Shown here: one piece after another, positions 5,945 to 23,236 of the stretch | How positions within the stretch are numbered: position 1 is the first letter of the stretch | Layout: each line of letters starts with the position of its first letter | Source: an uncultured Bryobacteraceae bacterium | GTDB lineage: Bacteria > Acidobacteriota > Terriglobia > Bryobacterales > Bryobacteraceae | DNA: 64,000 bases | Direction: 5' to 3' | NCBI GenBank assembly: GCA_938027685.1 | Contig: CALJAM010000014.1 | Coordinates: 1 to 64,000, forward strand | Translations under genes and position numbers: made by a program | The notes under the pieces: model-generated | Told to the model about the DNA's origin: nothing | Databases searched by the model: none | Seen by the model: only the letters and a program-made list of their open reading frames with translations

Positions 5945-5980
5945 TTGACACGCTCTCCCATATATGCGAATATGCATATA
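5945..5980 (+). promoter_or_regulatory. ArsR-type promoter with palindromic operator
   Basis: A perfect -35 hexamer TTGACA (5945-5950) is followed after 17 nt by GAATAT (5968-5973) in the -10 position. The -10 is the exact spacer of a perfect 7-bp inverted repeat, TATATGC (5961-5967) and GCATATA (5974-5980). An AT-rich palindrome covering the -10 is the usual layout of ArsR/SmtB repressor operators, and the next gene is an arsR homologue, so autoregulation is the natural reading. Confidence 0.75.
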
Positions 5981-5993
5981 GGTGGGTAGAAGG

Positions 5994-6401
5994 ATGCCCC
6001 TCGAGAGGCTTTTCAAAGCGCTGGCCGATCCGACCCGCCTGCGCATCATCAACCTCCTCCTCGAAGAGCCCTTCTGCGTCTGCGAGCTGGAGGCCATCCT
6101 CCAGTTGCCCCAGTCGTTGCTCTCGCGGCATCTCGCTTACCTTCGCGCGGCGGGGCTGGTGACGGACAAGCGCCGGGGCCCGCGCGTTCAATATTCGCTC
6201 TCCACGGCCCAGCCCGCTTTTGAGCTCTTGAAATCTTGCCTGCGGCAGGCTTTGCGACTGGAGAGGGTTTGTGACGAGGATTTGAATCGCCGCCGGCAGC
6301 TGCGCCTGCCGTGCTGCCCTCCGGCAAGCACCGGCTCCGGGGCGGTCTCCGGAATTCCCATGGAGGTAAAAGGTCATGAAAATCAAAGTGCTGATGTGTA
6401 A
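5994..6401 (+). CDS. arsR: ArsR-family transcriptional repressor with CVCEL metal site
   Basis: 135 aa from the ATG at 5994, preceded by GGTGGG; a GTG at 5982 is an alternative that would be almost leaderless. Winged-helix DNA-binding fold: KALADPTRLRIINLL near the N-terminus, recognition-helix region LPQSLLSRHLAYLRAAGLV, wing RRGPRVQYSL. The Cys-Val-Cys motif at residues 28-30 matches the arsenite/antimonite site of type I ArsR proteins; Cys107-Cys108 in the C-terminal tail could add ligands. It probably represses its own operon through the palindrome just upstream. The 3' end overlaps the next gene by 26 nt. Confidence 0.9.
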   Translation: MPLERLFKALADPTRLRIINLLLEEPFCVCELEAILQLPQSLLSRHLAYLRAAGLVTDKRRGPRVQYSLSTAQPAFELLKSCLRQALRLERVCDEDLNRRRQLRLPCCPPASTGSGAVSGIPMEVKGHENQSADV

Positions 6402-6819
6402 CTGCAAAGGTCTCTGCGACTCCTTCAAAGCGACCGACTTCAACACCCTTCCTTTCCAGGTGGAAAGCGAGCTGGACGTAAATTATGTCGCCCTACACCC
6501 GCAAACCTGCGGACAGGGCGGCAACGAGTTCCTGGCCGACGTCATGCGCAACGCCGATGGCGACACCTACATCATCAGCGCCGCCTGTGCGCCGGCCGCC
6601 CAGGACAAGCTCTTTCGCCGCATCATGCGGCAGACCGGCTTCCCGCCCGAGCGCTTCATCGCCGTCGACATCCGCATGACCAACAACGAGGGAGTGCTGG
6701 AGCGCATTCGCGAGGCTGTCGAAAAGTTGCTCCAGAGGGAAAATGCGCGTCGGCAGCTCCCTGAAGAGGAACTGGCGGGGGCTGGGTGCTGCTCGCTGCT
6801 CCCCGCGGACCAGCAGTGA
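6376..6819 (+). CDS. Free-standing HdrA N-terminal-domain-like cysteine-rich protein
   Basis: 147 aa. The sequence follows the N-terminal domain of HdrA-type heterodisulfide reductase/electron-bifurcation subunits: a strand leading into MCNCKGLC (C8, C10, C14), then HPQTCGQGG (C45) and ISAACAPAAQDKLFRR (C71). In HdrA this domain carries conserved cysteines but is followed by a flavin domain and ferredoxin motifs; here the protein stops after ~120 residues of domain plus a tail with GAGCC (C138, C139). It overlaps arsR by 26 nt and is followed after 13 nt by a ferredoxin gene, so all three are likely one transcript. A redox or metal-thiolate role partnered with the ferredoxin is inference; the reaction is unknown. 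Confidence 0.7.
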   Translation: MKIKVLMCNCKGLCDSFKATDFNTLPFQVESELDVNYVALHPQTCGQGGNEFLADVMRNADGDTYIISAACAPAAQDKLFRRIMRQTGFPPERFIAVDIRMTNNEGVLERIREAVEKLLQRENARRQLPEEELAGAGCCSLLPADQQ

Positions 6820-6832
6820 GTCGGGGGGAAGG

Positions 6833-7156
6833 ATGGAAGCGAAATTCAAAGTGCCGCGGGAAAGGATTCCCTGGTTTCCCACCATCAATTACGACGCCTG
6901 CATCCACGATCGCGAGTGCCTGGAGTTCTGCAAGAACGGCGTGTTCGATTGGGACGAGGCTCTGGGCGTGCCGATCGTCAGTCACCCGTACAACTGCGTT
7001 GTAGGTTGCGACGCCTGTGCCAAGATCTGCCCTGCGGAGGCGATCAGTTTTCCGCCAATGGATGAGTTCAGGGTCACGCTACGGAAGCTGATCGCGGATC
7101 TCAACCGTGAGGCCGAGCAGGCGCGTCGGCAGGAAGCTGTTACCGAGAGCCGTTAG
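6833..7156 (+). CDS. 2[4Fe-4S]-type ferredoxin with an Asp in cluster I
   Basis: 107 aa from the ATG at 6833, preceded by GGGGGGAAGG. Cysteines lie at residues 23, 29, 33 and 55, 59, 62, 66. The first site reads C-x2-D-x2-C-x3-C, with Asp26 where the second cysteine of a standard C-x2-C-x2-C-x3-C motif should be; the second site reads C-x3-C-x2-C-x3-CP, one residue longer than usual. The family is a bacterial dicluster ferredoxin; Asp ligation of one cluster is known from Pyrococcus furiosus ferredoxin. Third gene of the ArsR operon, and the probable electron donor or acceptor for the HdrA-like protein. The N-terminal and C-terminal extensions contain no further motifs. Confidence 0.85.
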   Translation: MEAKFKVPRERIPWFPTINYDACIHDRECLEFCKNGVFDWDEALGVPIVSHPYNCVVGCDACAKICPAEAISFPPMDEFRVTLRKLIADLNREAEQARRQEAVTESR

Positions 7157-7720
7157 TTTCGTCGAATCGGCGTGGCCGATACGGGTTCGATAACCGCCTG
7201 CTGCCGATTCGCGGAGCTCGGCTTCCACCACGAGGAAAACCCTCATGACCATACGGCGCGGGAGACCAGGCGGTCGCGACGCTCAACCAGGTTCGGCTTT
7301 CTGCCGCCCGGGAGTACGCGGCACGAGGGAAAGGAGCGCTTGTTCCGCCAGGCCGCGGAGTCCACAGGGTCTCCCGCGCGGCAGCGGACCGGCCCCTTGC
7401 GCGTGCGTGGGCGAAAGGCTGGTCGTAGGGTCTCCCGCGCGGGCGCAGACCGGCCGAAAGCGGCTGCGGCGTGGCGTCGATCCCGTACGAGCGGAAGCGC
7501 GCGTCCCTCACGCCAGGGATGCAGAGTTCCCTTGGCAATCGCGCCGGGAAACTCCGGCCGGCCGCCTTCAGCGGTTTCAGCCGTGCGCGGGTGACGGCTG
7601 CTGGCCTAATCGGCAACCAGAGACATGCGACCCAGGAGTGCCGGCCCCTGCCGGCCATAACAGCGACCCGATCGTTCGGCGTTCAGGTCGTGCAAGGCTA
7701 GAGACGGTGCTCCTTCGTCC
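7157..7720. other. Spacer between ars-type operon and RND operon
   Basis: About 560 nt with no supportable gene. It contains a pair of imperfect 29-bp direct repeats (listed separately) and otherwise GC-rich sequence whose frames have shadow-like composition. The RND operon's ribosome-binding site AGGAG lies just past its end (7721-7725). Confidence 0.5.
7366..7455. repeat. Pair of imperfect 29-bp direct repeats
   Basis: Copies at 7366-7394 and 7427-7455 share AGGGTCTCCCGCGCGG and end in ACCGGCC, differing only in a few central bases; the offset is 61 nt. This could be remnant tandem duplication in non-coding DNA. Confidence 0.6.
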
Positions 7721-7732
7721 AGGAGCCGGGCC

Positions 7733-10700
7733 ATGTGGATTGTAAAGCTGGCGCTACGGCGACCGTACACCTTCGTGGTAGCCGCCATTCTGGTGATGGT
7801 TCTCGGCGTCATCGCCGTCCAGCGCATGCCCACCGACATCCTGCCCGAGATCGACATCCCGGTGGTCAGCGCCATCTGGCAGTACCGCGGTCTTTCCCCT
7901 GAGGAAATGGCCAACCGCATCACCACTCTCTCGGAGCGCTCACTCACTACTACGGTCAGCGACATCGAGCACATGGAATCGCAGTCGCTGACCGGATTGG
8001 GCGTCATCAAGGTTTTCTTTCACCCGGGAACACCCGTCGAGGCCGCGGTCGCTCAGATGACCGCCATTTCGCAGACGGTGACCCGGCAGATGCCGCCCGG
8101 CGTGACCCCACCGCTGATCATCCGCTTCAACGCCTCCAGCGTGCCCATCTTGCAACTAGGCCTCGGCGGCCAGGGCCTTTCCGAACAGGCGCTCTACGAC
8201 ATCGGGGCCAACTTCCTCCGCACCCAACTCGCCACCGTACAAGGGGCCTCCGTACTCATGCCGGCCGGCGGACGCGCGCGCCAGATCATGGTGGACCTCA
8301 ACCCCGAGGCCCTATACGCACGAGGCATTTCTCCGGCGGAGGTCTCCGCCGCCCTCAATGCCCAGAGCCCCATCTTGCCCTCCGGCTACATAAAGATCGG
8401 TCCACGCGAGTACAGCGTCCGCTTGAACAACAGCCCCGACGTCGTCGAGGAGCTCAATAACGTGCCCGTGCGACAGCAGGGCCCTGCCACCGTTTACCTG
8501 CGCGACGTGGCGCAGGTGCGTGACGGCGGCGCCGTGCAAACCAACATCGTGCGAGTCAATGGCCGCCGCGGCGTGTTGCTCTCCATCTTGAAGACGGGCT
8601 CGGCCTCCACACTCGAGATCGTCGAGAAGGTCAAGCGCGAGCTGCCCCGCATCCTCTCCACGCTTCCCCCGGAGCTCGATGTCCGGCTGATGCTCGACCA
8701 GTCCCTCTTCGTGCGGGCCTCCATCCGCGCCGTGCTCTACGAAGCCCTGCTGGCGGGCCTACTCGTTTCCGTGATGATTCTGCTGTTCCTGGGCAGCTGG
8801 CGCAGCACCCTGATCGTCTGCACCTCGATTCCTCTTTCCATCCTGGTTTCCCTCATCGTGCTGTATCTGCTGGGGCAAACCATCAACGTGATGACGCTGG
8901 GCGGACTGGCCTTGGCGATCGGAATCCTCGTGGACGAGGCGGTAGTCGCGGTCGAGAACATTCATCGCCACCTGGCTCAAGGCAAGAGCATGATCCGCAG
9001 CGTGCTGGACGGCGCCGGGGAGATCGCGGTGCCCGCGCTGGTTTCGGCGTTGGCCATCTCCATCGTCTTCGTGCCCGTGGTCCTGCTGCGCGGTACCGCC
9101 AAGTTCCTTTTCCAACCGCTGGCCATGGCCGTGGTCTTTGCCATGTTGGCTTCCTACGTATGGTCGCGCACTCTGGTGCCGACCATGGCTCGCTATCTCC
9201 TACAACCCGAGATGCGCCGCCACCAGCACGGCGCGGAAGCCAAGCGAGCCGGTCCGCTGTTGCGCGCACACCTGGCTTTCCATCGGTGGTTCGAGAAGCT
9301 GCGGCAAAGTTACGGCCGTGCCTTGGCCTGGTCCCTGATGCACCGTCGCACCCTGCTGGCGGCATACGGCTTGCTGATTGCCGCTTCCTTGGCGCTCAGC
9401 CCGAATCTGGGCCAGGATTTCTTCCCCCGCGTAGACGCCGGCCAACTGCGCCTGCACGTGCGCGCCCCCGCCGGAACGCGGCTGGAAACCACTGAGGAGC
9501 TTTTCGCGCAGGTCGAGCAGCGGATCCGCGAAATCATACCAAGCGAAAAACTGGACGCCGTCGTTGACAACATCGGCCTCCCCGTACTGCCGCTGAACAT
9601 GGCCTACACCGACTCCGCCACGATCGGCTCTTCGGACGGGGAGATTCTCATCTCGCTCTCCAAAGCGCGCCGAAGGGGCGAAACCTGGGACTATGCACGT
9701 CGGCTCCGTGAAGAGCTGCGCCGCAGCTTTCCCGAGATGACTTTCTTTTTCCGCTCGCCGGACATGGTCAGCCAGATCCTCAACTTCGGCATCCCCGCGC
9801 CCATTGACATCCAGCTGATAGGGCGCAACCTCGCGGCCAATTACCGTCTGGCGCGCGACATCGAGGAGCGCCTGCGCCGCCTACCGGGTGTGGTCGACGT
9901 CAGGCTCCACCAGGTCCTGGATGCGCCCGAATTGCGCGTCAACGTCGACCGCGCACGCGCCGGCCAGATGGGGCTCACGCAGCGCGAAGTGGCTGGCAGC
10001 GTGTTAGTATCGCTCAGCTCCAGCGGCCAAGTTTCCCCGAATTACTGGCTCCACCCGGCCAGCGGCGTCAGCTACCTCATCGCAGTGCAAACCCCGGAGC
10101 ACCGCGCAGACTCCGTCGAAGCGCTGCTGACCACTCCTTTGGCCTCCGGACGCGGCAGTACCCCCCAGCTCCTCGGCAACCTCGCGGAACTGGAGCGCGG
10201 CGTCAGCAGCCAGGCGGTCTGCCACTACAACGTACAGCCGGTCCTGAACATTTATGCCGCTGTCGAAGATCGTGACCTCGGTAGCGTGGCGCGCGAGGTG
10301 GACCGCATCGTCAAAGAAGTCGAGCCTCGGTTGCCGCGCGGAAGCTTCCTACAGCTGAGAGGCCAGATTCAAACCATGCGCGATTCTTTTCAGGGCCTGG
10401 CCGGCGGGCTCCTGCTCGCCGTGCTGCTCGTCTACCTCATCATGGTCGTGAACTTCCAGAGCTGGCTGGATCCGCTCATCATTCTGCTCGCCTTGCCGGG
10501 CGCCTTGTCGGGCGTCATCTGGGGACTCTACCTCACCGACACCACCGTCAACGTCCCCTCGCTCATGGGCGCCGTCATGAGCGTGGGGGTGGCCACGGCG
10601 AACAGCATCTTGGTGGTCACCTTCGCCAACCAGCAACTCGCCCAGGGCGCGCCCGCAGCTGAGGCGGCAATATCGGCGGGCCTGGTGCGCCTGCGTCCCG

Positions 10701-20321: not shown

Positions 20322-20657
20322 ATGGCCATGCCTGATCCGAGCGGCCAGCGCATCCGCACGGCTCGCCTACTCAAGGCCATGGCGCACCCCCTACGCCTCC
20401 GGATCCTTGACGAGTTGGCCCAATACGGCGAGCGTTGTGTATGTGAGTTGGCGGCGCTGTGTGATGCCGACGAGTCGACGACCTCGCGTCACCTGACACG
20501 CCTGCGGGTTGTCGGCCTGGTCGCCGACCAGCGCCGCGGCCCGCAGGTCTTCTACCGGCTGTCGGGCCCCCATGTGCTGCGTTTACTGGAAGCGGTTCAC
20601 GCGGTTTCCGCGCGCCAAACGGTTTCTCCGGTCGAGCACTGCTTTGGAGCTTACTGA
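20322..20657 (+). CDS. arsR: ArsR-family transcriptional regulator with CVCEL metal site
   Basis: 111 aa if started at ATG 20322 (109 aa from ATG 20328). Winged helix-turn-helix: LKAMAHPLRLRILDELAQYG, then RCVCELAALC (C39, C41, C47), recognition region DESTTSRHLTRLRVVGLV and wing RRGPQVFYRL. The Cys-Val-Cys motif is the type I ArsR arsenite/antimonite site. There is no Shine-Dalgarno sequence, and the predicted -10 lies only 5 nt upstream, so translation may be leaderless. It is first in a run of four tightly spaced genes (next start 12 nt after its stop) and probably represses them. Confidence 0.9.
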   Translation: MAMPDPSGQRIRTARLLKAMAHPLRLRILDELAQYGERCVCELAALCDADESTTSRHLTRLRVVGLVADQRRGPQVFYRLSGPHVLRLLEAVHAVSARQTVSPVEHCFGAY

Positions 20658-20669
20658 AGGAACAAGGAA

Positions 20670-20927
20670 ATGGCTACGGTTACGGTGCAATTAAAGATTC
20701 TGGGACCTGGATGCACGAATTGCAAAAGGCTGGCGGCAAATGCCGAAGCTGCCGCCCGCGAAATGGAGCTCGCTTACGAACTCGAAAAAGTCACCGATAT
20801 CGGCAGGATGATCGGCTACGGCATCCGCCGTACACCGGCCCTGGTCATCAACGGCAAGGTAGCCGTGGAAGGGCGCGTGCCGTCACCCGAAGAACTCATG
20901 TCGATCCTGGCGCAACATACGGCCTGA
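20670..20927 (+). CDS. arsE: Small thioredoxin-like protein (ArsE-like)
   Basis: 85 aa, the size of TIGR00412-type small redox-active disulfide proteins. Active-site CTNC (Cys15, Cys18) follows a first beta strand (VQLKILGPG); TPALVINGKVAVEGRVPS holds the cis-Pro and the following strand pair. The gene order arsR - small thioredoxin - CPTC protein - DsbD-like membrane protein matches arsEFG loci known from Shewanella putrefaciens, where ArsE and ArsF are linked to reduction of nitroaromatic arsenicals. Cytoplasmic, since no signal is present. The symbol is assigned mainly from context; a generic thioredoxin role is the alternative. Confidence 0.7.
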   Translation: MATVTVQLKILGPGCTNCKRLAANAEAAAREMELAYELEKVTDIGRMIGYGIRRTPALVINGKVAVEGRVPSPEELMSILAQHTA

Positions 20928-20944
20928 CCTAGGGGGGGAGTCCC

Positions 20945-21454
20945 ATGTCCTGGAAAAGCCTGACGAAGTATTCACTGCTCGCTTTCGTCGCCGTCAGCGT
21001 GGCGGTGAACTTTTGGCAACTGGTGCGCCGCGACTCGCCGGCAGCCGAAGCCGCCGCCGCGCCCGTGGCTGCGGCGCCGAGCGCCGAGACAGCCCCGGCT
21101 CAAGCCCGTCCCGCCGAAAATAAGGTCCTCGTCTATTACTTTTACACCACGATACGCTGCCCTACTTGCCGGCGCATTGAAGCCCTGTCCGAACACGTAG
21201 TTAGGACCGCCTTCAGCGACGAGCTCCGCAAAGGGCTGATCGAGTTTGTGCCGATCAACGTGCAGTTGCCGCAATACCGCCACTTCATCCGCGACTATCA
21301 ACTGTTCACTAAGTCGGTGGTCATCGTGCGCCTCGAGGACGGCCGGCAGGCCGAATGGAAAAACCTGGAAAGAGTATGGGAGCTGGTTTATGACCCAAAG
21401 GCGTTCTTTCGGTATCTTCAGGATGAAATTCGGATTTATCTGAGAAAGCTATGA
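20945..21454 (+). CDS. arsF: ArsF-like membrane-anchored thioredoxin-fold protein
   Basis: 169 aa. An N-terminal membrane segment (SLLAFVAVSVAVNFW, residues 10-24) is followed by an Ala/Pro-rich linker (~30-58) and a thioredoxin-like domain with RCPTCR (Cys72, Cys75), then VPINVQLPQYRHFIRDYQLFTKSVVIVRLEDGR. This matches the family annotated as nitrophenyl compound nitroreductase subunit ArsF. GGGGGG precedes the ATG. The stop overlaps the next start (ATGA), so its partner is the following membrane protein. Likely passes electrons between the DsbD-like permease and an extracytoplasmic or membrane substrate; the substrate is inferred only from the family name. Confidence 0.75.
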   Translation: MSWKSLTKYSLLAFVAVSVAVNFWQLVRRDSPAAEAAAAPVAAAPSAETAPAQARPAENKVLVYYFYTTIRCPTCRRIEALSEHVVRTAFSDELRKGLIEFVPINVQLPQYRHFIRDYQLFTKSVVIVRLEDGRQAEWKNLERVWELVYDPKAFFRYLQDEIRIYLRKL

Positions 21455-22146
21455 TGGAGGGACTCTTATTGGGTTACGGCGGCGCCCTCTGGCTTGGCGT
21501 GCTGACCTCCGTCAGCCCCTGCCCGCTGGCGACCAACATCGCGGCCATCTCCTGGCTCACCAAAAGCATCCGGTCGCCACGACTCGTTTTGGCCGCCGGC
21601 GCCCTTTATGCCATCGGCCGAGCGGTTGCTTATATCGCACTGGCTGCGCTTTTGCTCACCAGCCTATTCTCGGTGCCTCGCCTTTCGGAAATTTTGCAGA
21701 ACCATCTGAATAAATGGCTCGGGCCGCTGTTGATTCTAGTGGGAATGTTCTTACTGGGTCTGCTCGAATTCCGCTTCTCGACGCGAGTTGGCAGCGGCAA
21801 GTTGGAGCAGAAGCTGTATGACAGCGGCGCCTGGGGTGCCGCCTTCCTGGGCATGCTCTTCGCGCTGTCGTTCTGTCCTGTCTCGGCGGCCCTCTATTTC
21901 GGCAGCCTCTTGCCCCTGGCGTTGCAGCACCGATCCACGCTGGGGCTTCCCGCTCTGTTCGGGATCGGGACAGGGTTGCCGGTGCTTGTTTTTGCCTGGT
22001 TATTGGCGGCGGGCGCGCGCTCCTTGAGCGCCGCGTTCCAACGACTCTCGGCGCTGGAGCGATATGCGCGGCCCGCCACGGGTGTCGTGTTCGTGCTCGT
22101 CGGGATCTATCTGTCCCTGGTTCACATTTACCGTGTCGAGCTGTGA
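21451..22146 (+). CDS. arsG: DsbD/CcdA-like membrane protein (ArsG-like)
   Basis: 231 aa with about six membrane segments. Two conserved intramembrane cysteines sit in the DsbD/CcdA positions: Cys24 in SVSPCPLATN and Cys142 in ALSFCPVSAAL, an internal-repeat arrangement typical of thiol-electron transporters. The closest named family is the aromatic aminobenzylarsenical efflux permease ArsG, part of arsEFG operons. It overlaps arsF by 4 nt and is last in the operon; the next gene starts 257 nt on. Whether it exports a reduced arsenical or only moves electrons across the membrane cannot be told from sequence. Confidence 0.75.
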   Translation: MMEGLLLGYGGALWLGVLTSVSPCPLATNIAAISWLTKSIRSPRLVLAAGALYAIGRAVAYIALAALLLTSLFSVPRLSEILQNHLNKWLGPLLILVGMFLLGLLEFRFSTRVGSGKLEQKLYDSGAWGAAFLGMLFALSFCPVSAALYFGSLLPLALQHRSTLGLPALFGIGTGLPVLVFAWLLAAGARSLSAAFQRLSALERYARPATGVVFVLVGIYLSLVHIYRVEL

Positions 22147-22402
22147 CGGCCTCTAGAGCAGAGAAGCGGTGGCGGACAGGACGTTCCCTGCCTCCGGCCC
22201 GGATTTTTCTACAGCCGGGTTCGAGCGCCATGACCGGGAGCGCTTGGGACCTAAACGCCGCCCACGCAGGGAGCCCGGCAAGGCTCAGCCATCACACCCC
22301 GCCCCGCTCGTCGGCACCGTCGCTGCCGCAGGGTGCACATCATCGGCAACGAACCGACCGCGGGAATATGGAATTCGTGTTCAGGCAGCGAAGGAGGAAC
22401 TC

Positions 22403-23236
22403 ATGACGGCTCCGGTCCTAGCAGAAAAGGACTACGCGTTTCTCGGCTCCGGCATCATCGCCGGCGTCTTCGCGGAGCGAATGGTCAACGCCGGAATCCC
22501 CGCCGGCAGACTGCACGTGTCCGACGTCGATCCGGGCAAGGCCAAAGAGCTCGAGCGCAAGCTGGGCGTGCGCGCGGCTCGGGACAACCGGGAGGCGGCC
22601 GCCGCAGCCGATGTCGTCTTCCTCTGCGTACCTCCCCAGGCGGTCAAGACCGTGATGGACGAGGTGCGCGCCGCGCTGCGGCCGAACGTGCTGCTGGTCT
22701 CGCTGGCCGCTGCGGTCCGGACCGAATGGATCGAGCAGAGCGCGGGCGGGGCCGTAAAGGTTCTCCGCGTGATACCAAACACACCCTCGCTGATCGGCGC
22801 GGGAATGAATCCTCACTGTCTGGGCCGGCACGTGACAGAGGCCGATCTGGCCTTCATCGACGCCTTACTGGGGTTGTTCGGCACCACGGTGCGGCTCCGG
22901 GAAGACCAGATGGAAGCCTTCACCGCCCTGACCGCTGTCGGCCCCACCTACGTATTCCCCATCATCCAGGCCCTGAGGGACGCCGCCGCGGGCGCCGGCG
23001 TGGAGAAGCAGGCAGCTGAGCGCGCCGCAGCGCAGACGGTTCTGGGAGCAGCGCAGTTGGTGCTGCAAACCGGCCGCGGACCCGAGGACTTGATCCAAAT
23101 GATCGGCACCCGCACGCTGGCGGAGGATGCGGCCCGAGACTTATTCCGTCAAGCCTACGAGACCGCCCTCGGCAAGCTGCGGCAAGCCGTCCAACGGCTC
23201 TCGGCCCCCTGGCAGCAGCCGCCTCCTCGCGGATAA
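22403..23236 (+). CDS. proC: Pyrroline-5-carboxylate reductase-like oxidoreductase
   Basis: 277 aa from the ATG at 22403 with an excellent AAGGAGGAAC site; the longer upstream frame lacks one. The N-terminal Rossmann motif is FLGSGIIAGVFAERM and the central part has VLRVIPNTPSLIGAGM, the ProC substrate-binding region. The C-terminal half is the helical dimerisation domain (FTALTAVGPTYVF and AAQTVLGAAQLV). ProC reduces 1-pyrroline-5-carboxylate to proline with NAD(P)H. Some members of the family act on other imines, and this gene stands alone, so the proC symbol is probable rather than certain. Its last codons lie in the first copy of a 37-bp direct repeat. Confidence 0.8.
   Translation: MTAPVLAEKDYAFLGSGIIAGVFAERMVNAGIPAGRLHVSDVDPGKAKELERKLGVRAARDNREAAAAADVVFLCVPPQAVKTVMDEVRAALRPNVLLVSLAAAVRTEWIEQSAGGAVKVLRVIPNTPSLIGAGMNPHCLGRHVTEADLAFIDALLGLFGTTVRLREDQMEAFTALTAVGPTYVFPIIQALRDAAAGAGVEKQAAERAAAQTVLGAAQLVLQTGRGPEDLIQMIGTRTLAEDAARDLFRQAYETALGKLRQAVQRLSAPWQQPPPRG

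Follow-up and report, generated by a model that had tools for sequence, protein, structure and literature searches.

What does an arsenic-type repressor control when neither an arsenic pump nor an arsenical-modifying enzyme is encoded in its operon? Known ars genes serve to pump arsenic, to reduce or methylate it, or to sense it, and the question is raised by three genes near the start of the window, that is, the whole 64,000-nucleotide stretch of DNA from an uncultured Bryobacteraceae bacterium that was analysed. The original prediction described an ArsR with a CVCEL motif that overlaps by 26 nt a small cysteine-rich protein similar to the N-terminal domain of HdrA (HdrA-N), followed after 13 nt by a ferredoxin, and these coordinates were confirmed to the base. 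The trio and its control region comprise the following features:

5945–5950, plus strand: TTGACA, a −35-like hexamer read from the sequence
5961–5980, plus strand: candidate ArsR operator, an imperfect palindrome TATATGCGAATATGCATATA with 8 of 10 pairs
5962–5973, plus strand: core ATATGCGAATAT of the candidate ArsR operator
5994–6401, plus strand: ArsR/SmtB repressor of 135 aa with CVCEL, matching HTH_5 and HTH_metalloreg
6376–6819, plus strand: stand-alone HdrA N-domain-like protein of 147 aa, by profile, fold and Cys pattern
6833–7156, plus strand: dicluster ferredoxin of 107 aa, whose first cluster motif has Asp26 in place of its second Cys

The repressor starts at the ATG at 5994, with an in-frame GTG also present at 5982, and ends at the stop at 6401. 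It scores 63 bits with HTH_5 (cut-off 22) and 89.9 bits with the NCBIfam HTH_metalloreg model (cut-off 55), and its motif reads FCVCEL, so that by its vicinal thiols it is a repressor of the ars-operon type. The As(III) site of As(III)-sensing ArsR proteins is made up of three cysteines, CxCxxC, and the trio repressor has two of them, the third being absent. Upstream, the hexamer and the palindrome claimed for the promoter are both there, but a scan for the sigma-70 consensus turned up no complete promoter (0 found against 0.2 expected), so the label "promoter" covers the −35-like hexamer only. The operator core was present in three of the 13 ArsR upstream regions compared, and not in the other ten: those of the window trio, of a related trio (L031), and of a cluster with the order ArsR-Acr3-HdrA-N-ferredoxin-ArsP (L042), which belongs to another family than the window. 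In its own genome the core occurs once (reversed control, 0). On the 3′ side of the trio about 580 bases follow with no gene recognised, and at 7733 begins a gene that by eye encodes an RND-type pump. In L031 a DGC gene sits between the ferredoxin and the RND pump; a DGC remnant was looked for by tblastn in the window and rejected, with no trace at 7157–7732 (the best match in the window, E 0.18, lies elsewhere), and at E 0.001 the own genome showed no member of this protein family.

The identity of the middle protein was approached from both sequence and fold. It carries the motifs CxC (MCNCKGLC), HPQTCGQGG and SAACAP and has no Pfam match; over 18 members of its family, matches to six Pfam families were seen, each in a single member and none consistent (best E 0.0088). 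The NCBIfam HdrA models align to its residues 1–101, with HdrA2 at E 2.9e-5, and their scores stay far under the cut-off because these models span the whole 770-aa HdrA; HdrA2 was matched by 10 of the 18 members at E 0.1. When a profile of the 18 members was compared with the PDB, the three best matches were all HdrA chains (2.1e-5, 0.0016 and 0.0052). The AlphaFold2 model is of modest quality (pLDDT 67, pTM 0.62) and weakest at residues 11–50, which hold three of the five conserved cysteines, Cys14 and Cys45 included. With this model Foldseek gave only two matches below 0.001, both HdrA chains (TMq 0.45–0.46), and the top seven rows of VIA were HdrA as well (Z 9.1–10.3, 119–137 residues aligned, rmsd 3.4–7.5), the next row being an unrelated protein at Z 8.7, less than 1 Z below the lower HdrA rows. 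Taken together, sequence and fold evidence make the middle protein, as judged from profiles and a predicted model, a free-standing relative of the N-terminal domain of HdrA (HdrA residues about 1–130). The assignment made in the original prediction was thus upheld by NCBIfam, the PDB profile, Foldseek and VIA, none of which placed the protein outside HdrA-N. Whole HdrA has in addition a flavin (thioredoxin reductase) domain and ferredoxin domains, whereas the 147-aa ORF contains neither, and no HdrB or HdrC was recognised by eye near the window trio. In a tree of 53 rows, which omits a copy split over two frames (L084) and a broken one (L193), the split between the stand-alone proteins and 16 HdrA N-domains has a support of 100/100.

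A closer view of the cysteines shows both the likeness to HdrA and a difference from it. The window protein has them at positions 8, 10, 14, 45, 71, 138 and 139, and the first five are conserved in the copies of ars type. Cys8, Cys10 and Cys71 occur in 38 of 39 stand-alone rows each and Cys45 in all 39, the missing cases being gaps in two broken copies. Equivalents of these four were found together in 16/16 HdrA N-domains, a CxC...C...[AS]C pattern that the small protein has in common with HdrA along with sequence profile and fold. In contrast, the position of Cys14 is Cys in 36/36 readable ars-type copies and Ile in 16/16 HdrA N-domains; these domains come from 17 HdrA loci, of which the profile missed one (L028), which by eye has the same CHCGGNI. 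In HdrA, according to the accessible text of PMC9012536, the N-terminal cluster takes one ligand in trans, Cys197 of the other HdrA chain, for which Cys14 of the stand-alone protein may stand in, as conservation suggests. In two further copies (L122 and L123) the HdrA-N-like protein lacks Cys14, with Lys at this position in both, and is the last gene of an operon that by eye resembles KorDABC, a 2-oxoacid:ferredoxin oxidoreductase. These Kor-linked copies nest within the stand-alone clade, where a long-branch warning applies. The presence of Cys14 in the ars-type copies and its absence from the two Kor-linked ones make a one-residue test possible.

How widespread is this arrangement? Searches of genome sets covered the phylum Acidobacteriota, and 13 of 396 phylum genomes have stand-alone copies at E 2.1e-11 or better; a fourteenth holds a copy split over two frames, found via its ferredoxin. 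A weaker match in one more genome, a 310-aa frame at E 4.8e-4, falls outside this count. Within the window's family 12 of 121 genomes match, with nine ars-type copies, two Kor-linked ones and a 668-aa frame taken as HdrA proper, and two of the three genomes of its genus in this set have a copy. Further sets, which overlap with that of 396 genomes, gave 12/94, 3/13 and 2/37. The pair is present in several families of the phylum. A single-protein search of genome contigs gave six loci. Spread on plasmids was considered and rejected, since two queries gave no HdrA-N-like match among 72,556 plasmid records. In all, 39 loci of the stand-alone family were laid out; L035 and L037, taken as the same contig, were counted once, and L114–L117, which repeat L031, L034, L032 and L036, were excluded from the counts. 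The search for the order ArsR, HdrA-N-like protein, ferredoxin across genomes showed that it recurs: ArsR lies directly upstream on the same strand at 20/39 loci, and the ferredoxin directly downstream at 34/39 by rule or 35/39 by eye (L051 fails the automatic rule), the exceptions being L039, L041 and the two Kor-linked loci. Read by eye, 13 of the 20 upstream ArsRs have CVC and seven AVC, the latter all in one genus. The L032 locus, filed as Arcobacter sp., resembles the Bryobacteraceae loci and probably comes from a mislabelled bin.

The partner ferredoxins form a recognisable set, which shares IPREKIPW close to the N-terminus and a second cluster motif CVVxCxxCxxxC. In the window protein the first motif reads CIHDRECLEFC, and the Asp for the second Cys is found in 11 of the 34 pairs scored, the window's included; such a replacement in other ferredoxins accompanies a [3Fe-4S] or Asp-bound cluster. 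A structure model of the protein (pLDDT 59) was too poor and was discarded. A link with mercury methylation was also rejected, as the ferredoxin scores 27.7 of 99 bits with HgcB and 29 of 285 with the HgcAB-like model, far below cut-off.

The genes in the neighbourhood bear on what the pair is for. Markers of ars systems were counted within 8 kb of the 39 loci and in 40 arbitrary control stretches, 492 kb against 519 kb of sequence. The controls come from 24 of the genomes, 16 of them giving two, and are contig starts (C3, C5) apart from one mid-contig stretch; the genomes of 11 later loci and of L033 gave no control, and several test and control stretches are shorter than 16 kb. A neighbour was counted when its phmmer score exceeded bit thresholds that we set ourselves, other neighbours were named by eye, and the marker queries were drawn from the test loci, which consequently match themselves. 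The Acr3 queries (L042 and L048) score 378 and 460 bits against an NCBIfam cut-off of 283, the ArsM query (L120) 354 against 263, and the ArsE query is above its NCBIfam cut-off; those for ArsP (ArsP_1, 235 bits, cut-off 32) and ArsC (LMWPc) have a Pfam match only, ArsA was named by eye only, and ArsD by eye with no NCBIfam match. On this basis Acr3 was found at 14/39 loci and 0/40 controls (Fisher 1.2e-5, a value that overstates the evidence because the loci are related to each other), ArsM at 4/39 and 0/40, ArsA at 6/39 and 0/40, ArsP at 4/39 and 0/40, ArsD-like proteins at 3/39 and 0/40, and LMW-type ArsC at 7/39 and 1/40. Any of these six occurs at 17/39 loci against 1/40 controls, the one control (L156) having ArsC-like and ProC-like matches; Acr3, ArsM, ArsA or ArsP likewise at 17/39 against 0/40, and Acr3 or ArsM at 15/39 against 0/40. 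ArsR lies within 8 kb at 31/39 loci, ArsE at 14/39, and ArsE, ArsF and ArsG together at 6/39, with 0/40 controls in each case. The remaining 22 loci, the window among them, have none of the six markers. Altogether, an arsenic linkage of the HdrA-N-like/ferredoxin pair is well supported.

Two details of these clusters can be added. In L120 (4359–5453) an arsenite methyltransferase (ArsM) is fused to an ArsE-type thioredoxin-like domain, and the fusion ends directly before the HdrA-N-like gene. In L043, L184, L188 and L189 the trio is followed by a fourth gene, which encodes a protein of 114–115 aa with RSCCSS near its start, which by eye looks like an ArsD-type fold; its L043 copy has no Pfam match.

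In the window itself, ArsR was the only ars marker found in the 6.4 kb before the trio and the 8 kb after it, and a complete ArsR-ArsE-ArsF-ArsG set (20322–22146) lies 13.2 kb from the trio:

20322–20657, plus strand: second ArsR (CVCEL), heading the arsEFG set
20670–20927, plus strand: ArsE-family thioredoxin-like protein (TIGR00412, 93.6 bits, cut-off 62)
20945–21454, plus strand: ArsF-family protein (NF040494, 105.7 bits, cut-off 60)
21451–22146, plus strand: ArsG-family permease (NF040495, 270.5 bits, cut-off 200)

In four close relatives (L032, L033, L034 and L037) such a set is found within 8 kb of the trio. The arsEFG genes (Chen, Zhang and Rosen 2019) are named in the introduction of PMC9144182, in whose accessible text this ArsR-led system of thioredoxin-like proteins and a permease does not include the HdrA-N/ferredoxin pair. 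A ProC-like reductase (22394–23236; 169.5 bits, below the cut-off of 196.75) follows the set in the window, and its relatives also lie near the trio in L032, L034 and L037. Elsewhere in the own genome, no Acr3 was found at E 0.001; two ArsP_1 permeases score above cut-off, one near ArsR and ArsD-like ORFs and the other near ArsR and ArsE-like ORFs, and an ArsM-like gene under the curated cut-off is split over reading frames (C12:53882–54621, L205). The original prediction that this is not a standard ars operon holds for the trio, which has no arsenic pump or arsenical-modifying enzyme, but the pair does keep company with ars systems: in many relatives it stands in ars clusters with Acr3, ArsA, ArsM or ArsP. 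Because of these clusters, and of the arsEFG set less than 8 kb away in four relatives and 13.2 kb away in the window, we regard the pair rather as an arsenic-resistance accessory that is also found alone behind an ArsR.

What could such an accessory do? The metalloid redox module that had been proposed is the best reading, and we would word it as an arsenic-responsive ferredoxin/HdrA-N electron-transfer pair serving reductive, thiol-based detoxification, an explanation that we place midway between doubt and confidence. The repressor would hold the operator at 5961–5980 and release it when the CVC thiols bind a trivalent arsenical, whereupon the ferredoxin and the stand-alone HdrA-N-type protein would be made. 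The latter is predicted to carry one [4Fe-4S] cluster and, if Cys14 replaces the trans ligand, could hold it alone. The ferredoxin would then give low-potential electrons to the HdrA-N-type protein, which would hand them to a thiol-disulfide or arsenical partner, candidate acceptors being the ArsE/ArsF thioredoxin-like proteins, ArsC and ArsM, so that the ferredoxin pool would feed reductive steps of arsenic detoxification. Trivalent arsenic or antimony is the likeliest inducer, judging from the CVC motif, the shared operator core and the linkage, with the AVC trios as a caution; for the acceptor, our first guess is ArsE-type proteins, in view of their frequency at the loci. The electron theme is strengthened by the prevalence of the ferredoxin, by the KorDABC-like operons (names by eye) that the two Kor-linked copies follow, and by the fusions of ferredoxin relatives to flavin oxidoreductases described below. 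That the pair often lies inside ars clusters in related bacteria hints at a so far undescribed helper that supplies electrons for arsenic detoxification.

It is commonly assumed that ars proteins draw their reductant from thioredoxin or glutaredoxin, with NADPH, and a pair of a ferredoxin and an HdrA-type protein that recurs in ars clusters would link the pool of low-potential electrons with arsenic detoxification. No description of the HdrA-N-like/ferredoxin pair in an ars context was found among the papers listed by literature searches, which took in few subscription titles, and the word "ferredoxin" is absent from the accessible text of a survey of transporters in ars operons (PMC4435449). 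A precedent is Fusibacter sp. 3D3, with the order arsD-arsR-ferredoxin-acr3-arsC, for which ferredoxin-fed arsenate reduction has been proposed (PMC9751042). Its 4Fe-4S ferredoxin (Pno), encoded between arsR and acr3, is likened here by description, whereas "HdrA" and "heterodisulfide" do not appear in the accessible text of that paper. The ars accessory module draws on a known domain, HdrA-N, in an apparently new role, and the stand-alone protein would offer the HdrA cluster domain in a minimal form that is tractable for study.

A more specific version of this electron-transfer explanation, possible though doubtful, would make the pair a two-protein ferredoxin-dependent reductase of arsenic detoxification. 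In it, the cluster domain of HdrA would have been released from flavin bifurcation and become self-sufficient through one extra Cys, and it would pass single low-potential electrons from the ferredoxin to ArsE/ArsF-type thioredoxin-like proteins or directly to oxidised arsenicals, in a role like that of ferredoxin:thioredoxin reductase and with a separate origin. That enzyme has CPC/CPC/CHC motifs with a redox disulfide and would work alike, from ferredoxin through a [4Fe-4S] protein to thioredoxin-like targets. In contrast, the CPC/CHC motifs are absent from the HdrA-N-like protein, which has no conserved redox disulfide pair and is not filed as its relative.

The same cysteines allow other explanations. 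The small protein might be an As(III) chaperone or scavenger, in which CxCxxxC is a three-thiol arsenite site that the ferredoxin keeps reduced, or the pair might hand As(III) to Acr3 or ArsA as ArsD does. It is only in ars-type copies that Cys14 turns the CxC of HdrA into CxCxxxC, all seven closest copies end in a C-terminal CC or CxC, and Acr3 and ArsA recur at the loci; a chaperone, however, would need neither the four cysteines shared with HdrA nor a dicluster ferredoxin, and both are kept, so we consider this unlikely. It seems also improbable that the repressor answers to another ligand (sulfane sulfur, thiol stress or another metal) and that the pair works as a redox module for thiols or sulfur, sharing ars neighbourhoods. 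ArsR/SmtB proteins sense many ligands, and the absent third Cys, AVC in seven of the 20 upstream ArsRs, the thiol-type nature of ArsE and ArsG, and the RND-type pump (by eye) rather than Acr3 downstream of the window trio would all fit, but the enrichment of Acr3 and ArsM, whose queries score above curated cut-offs, and the operator core common to the window trio and an Acr3 cluster argue for arsenic. That the pair protects or repairs Fe-S clusters during metalloid stress appears more improbable still: SufC-like and SufB/D-like genes occur within 8 kb at 5/39 loci and 0/40 controls, and in L040 the SufB/D-like protein scores 64.5 bits with Pfam SUFBD_core, above the cut-off of 27, yet five loci are few, and both the SufC-like and the SufB/D-like proteins of L040 fall below their NCBIfam cut-offs. 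Finally, chance neighbours with no joint function are very hard to credit, as the pair recurs in several families of the phylum and is enriched over controls in ars company, even with 22 of 39 loci lacking the six markers.

Beyond the pair, ferredoxins of the next score class have ars-like surroundings (names by eye) in L082, L083, L085, L087 and L088, with no HdrA-N-like ORF near them. A relative of the ferredoxin with 45% identity is fused to a flavin oxidoreductase, as annotated, on the Sulfuricella plasmid pSCD, where the fusion adjoins an RND pump and a YeeE/YedE protein, and by eye a fusion to a flavin oxidoreductase is also found in L090.
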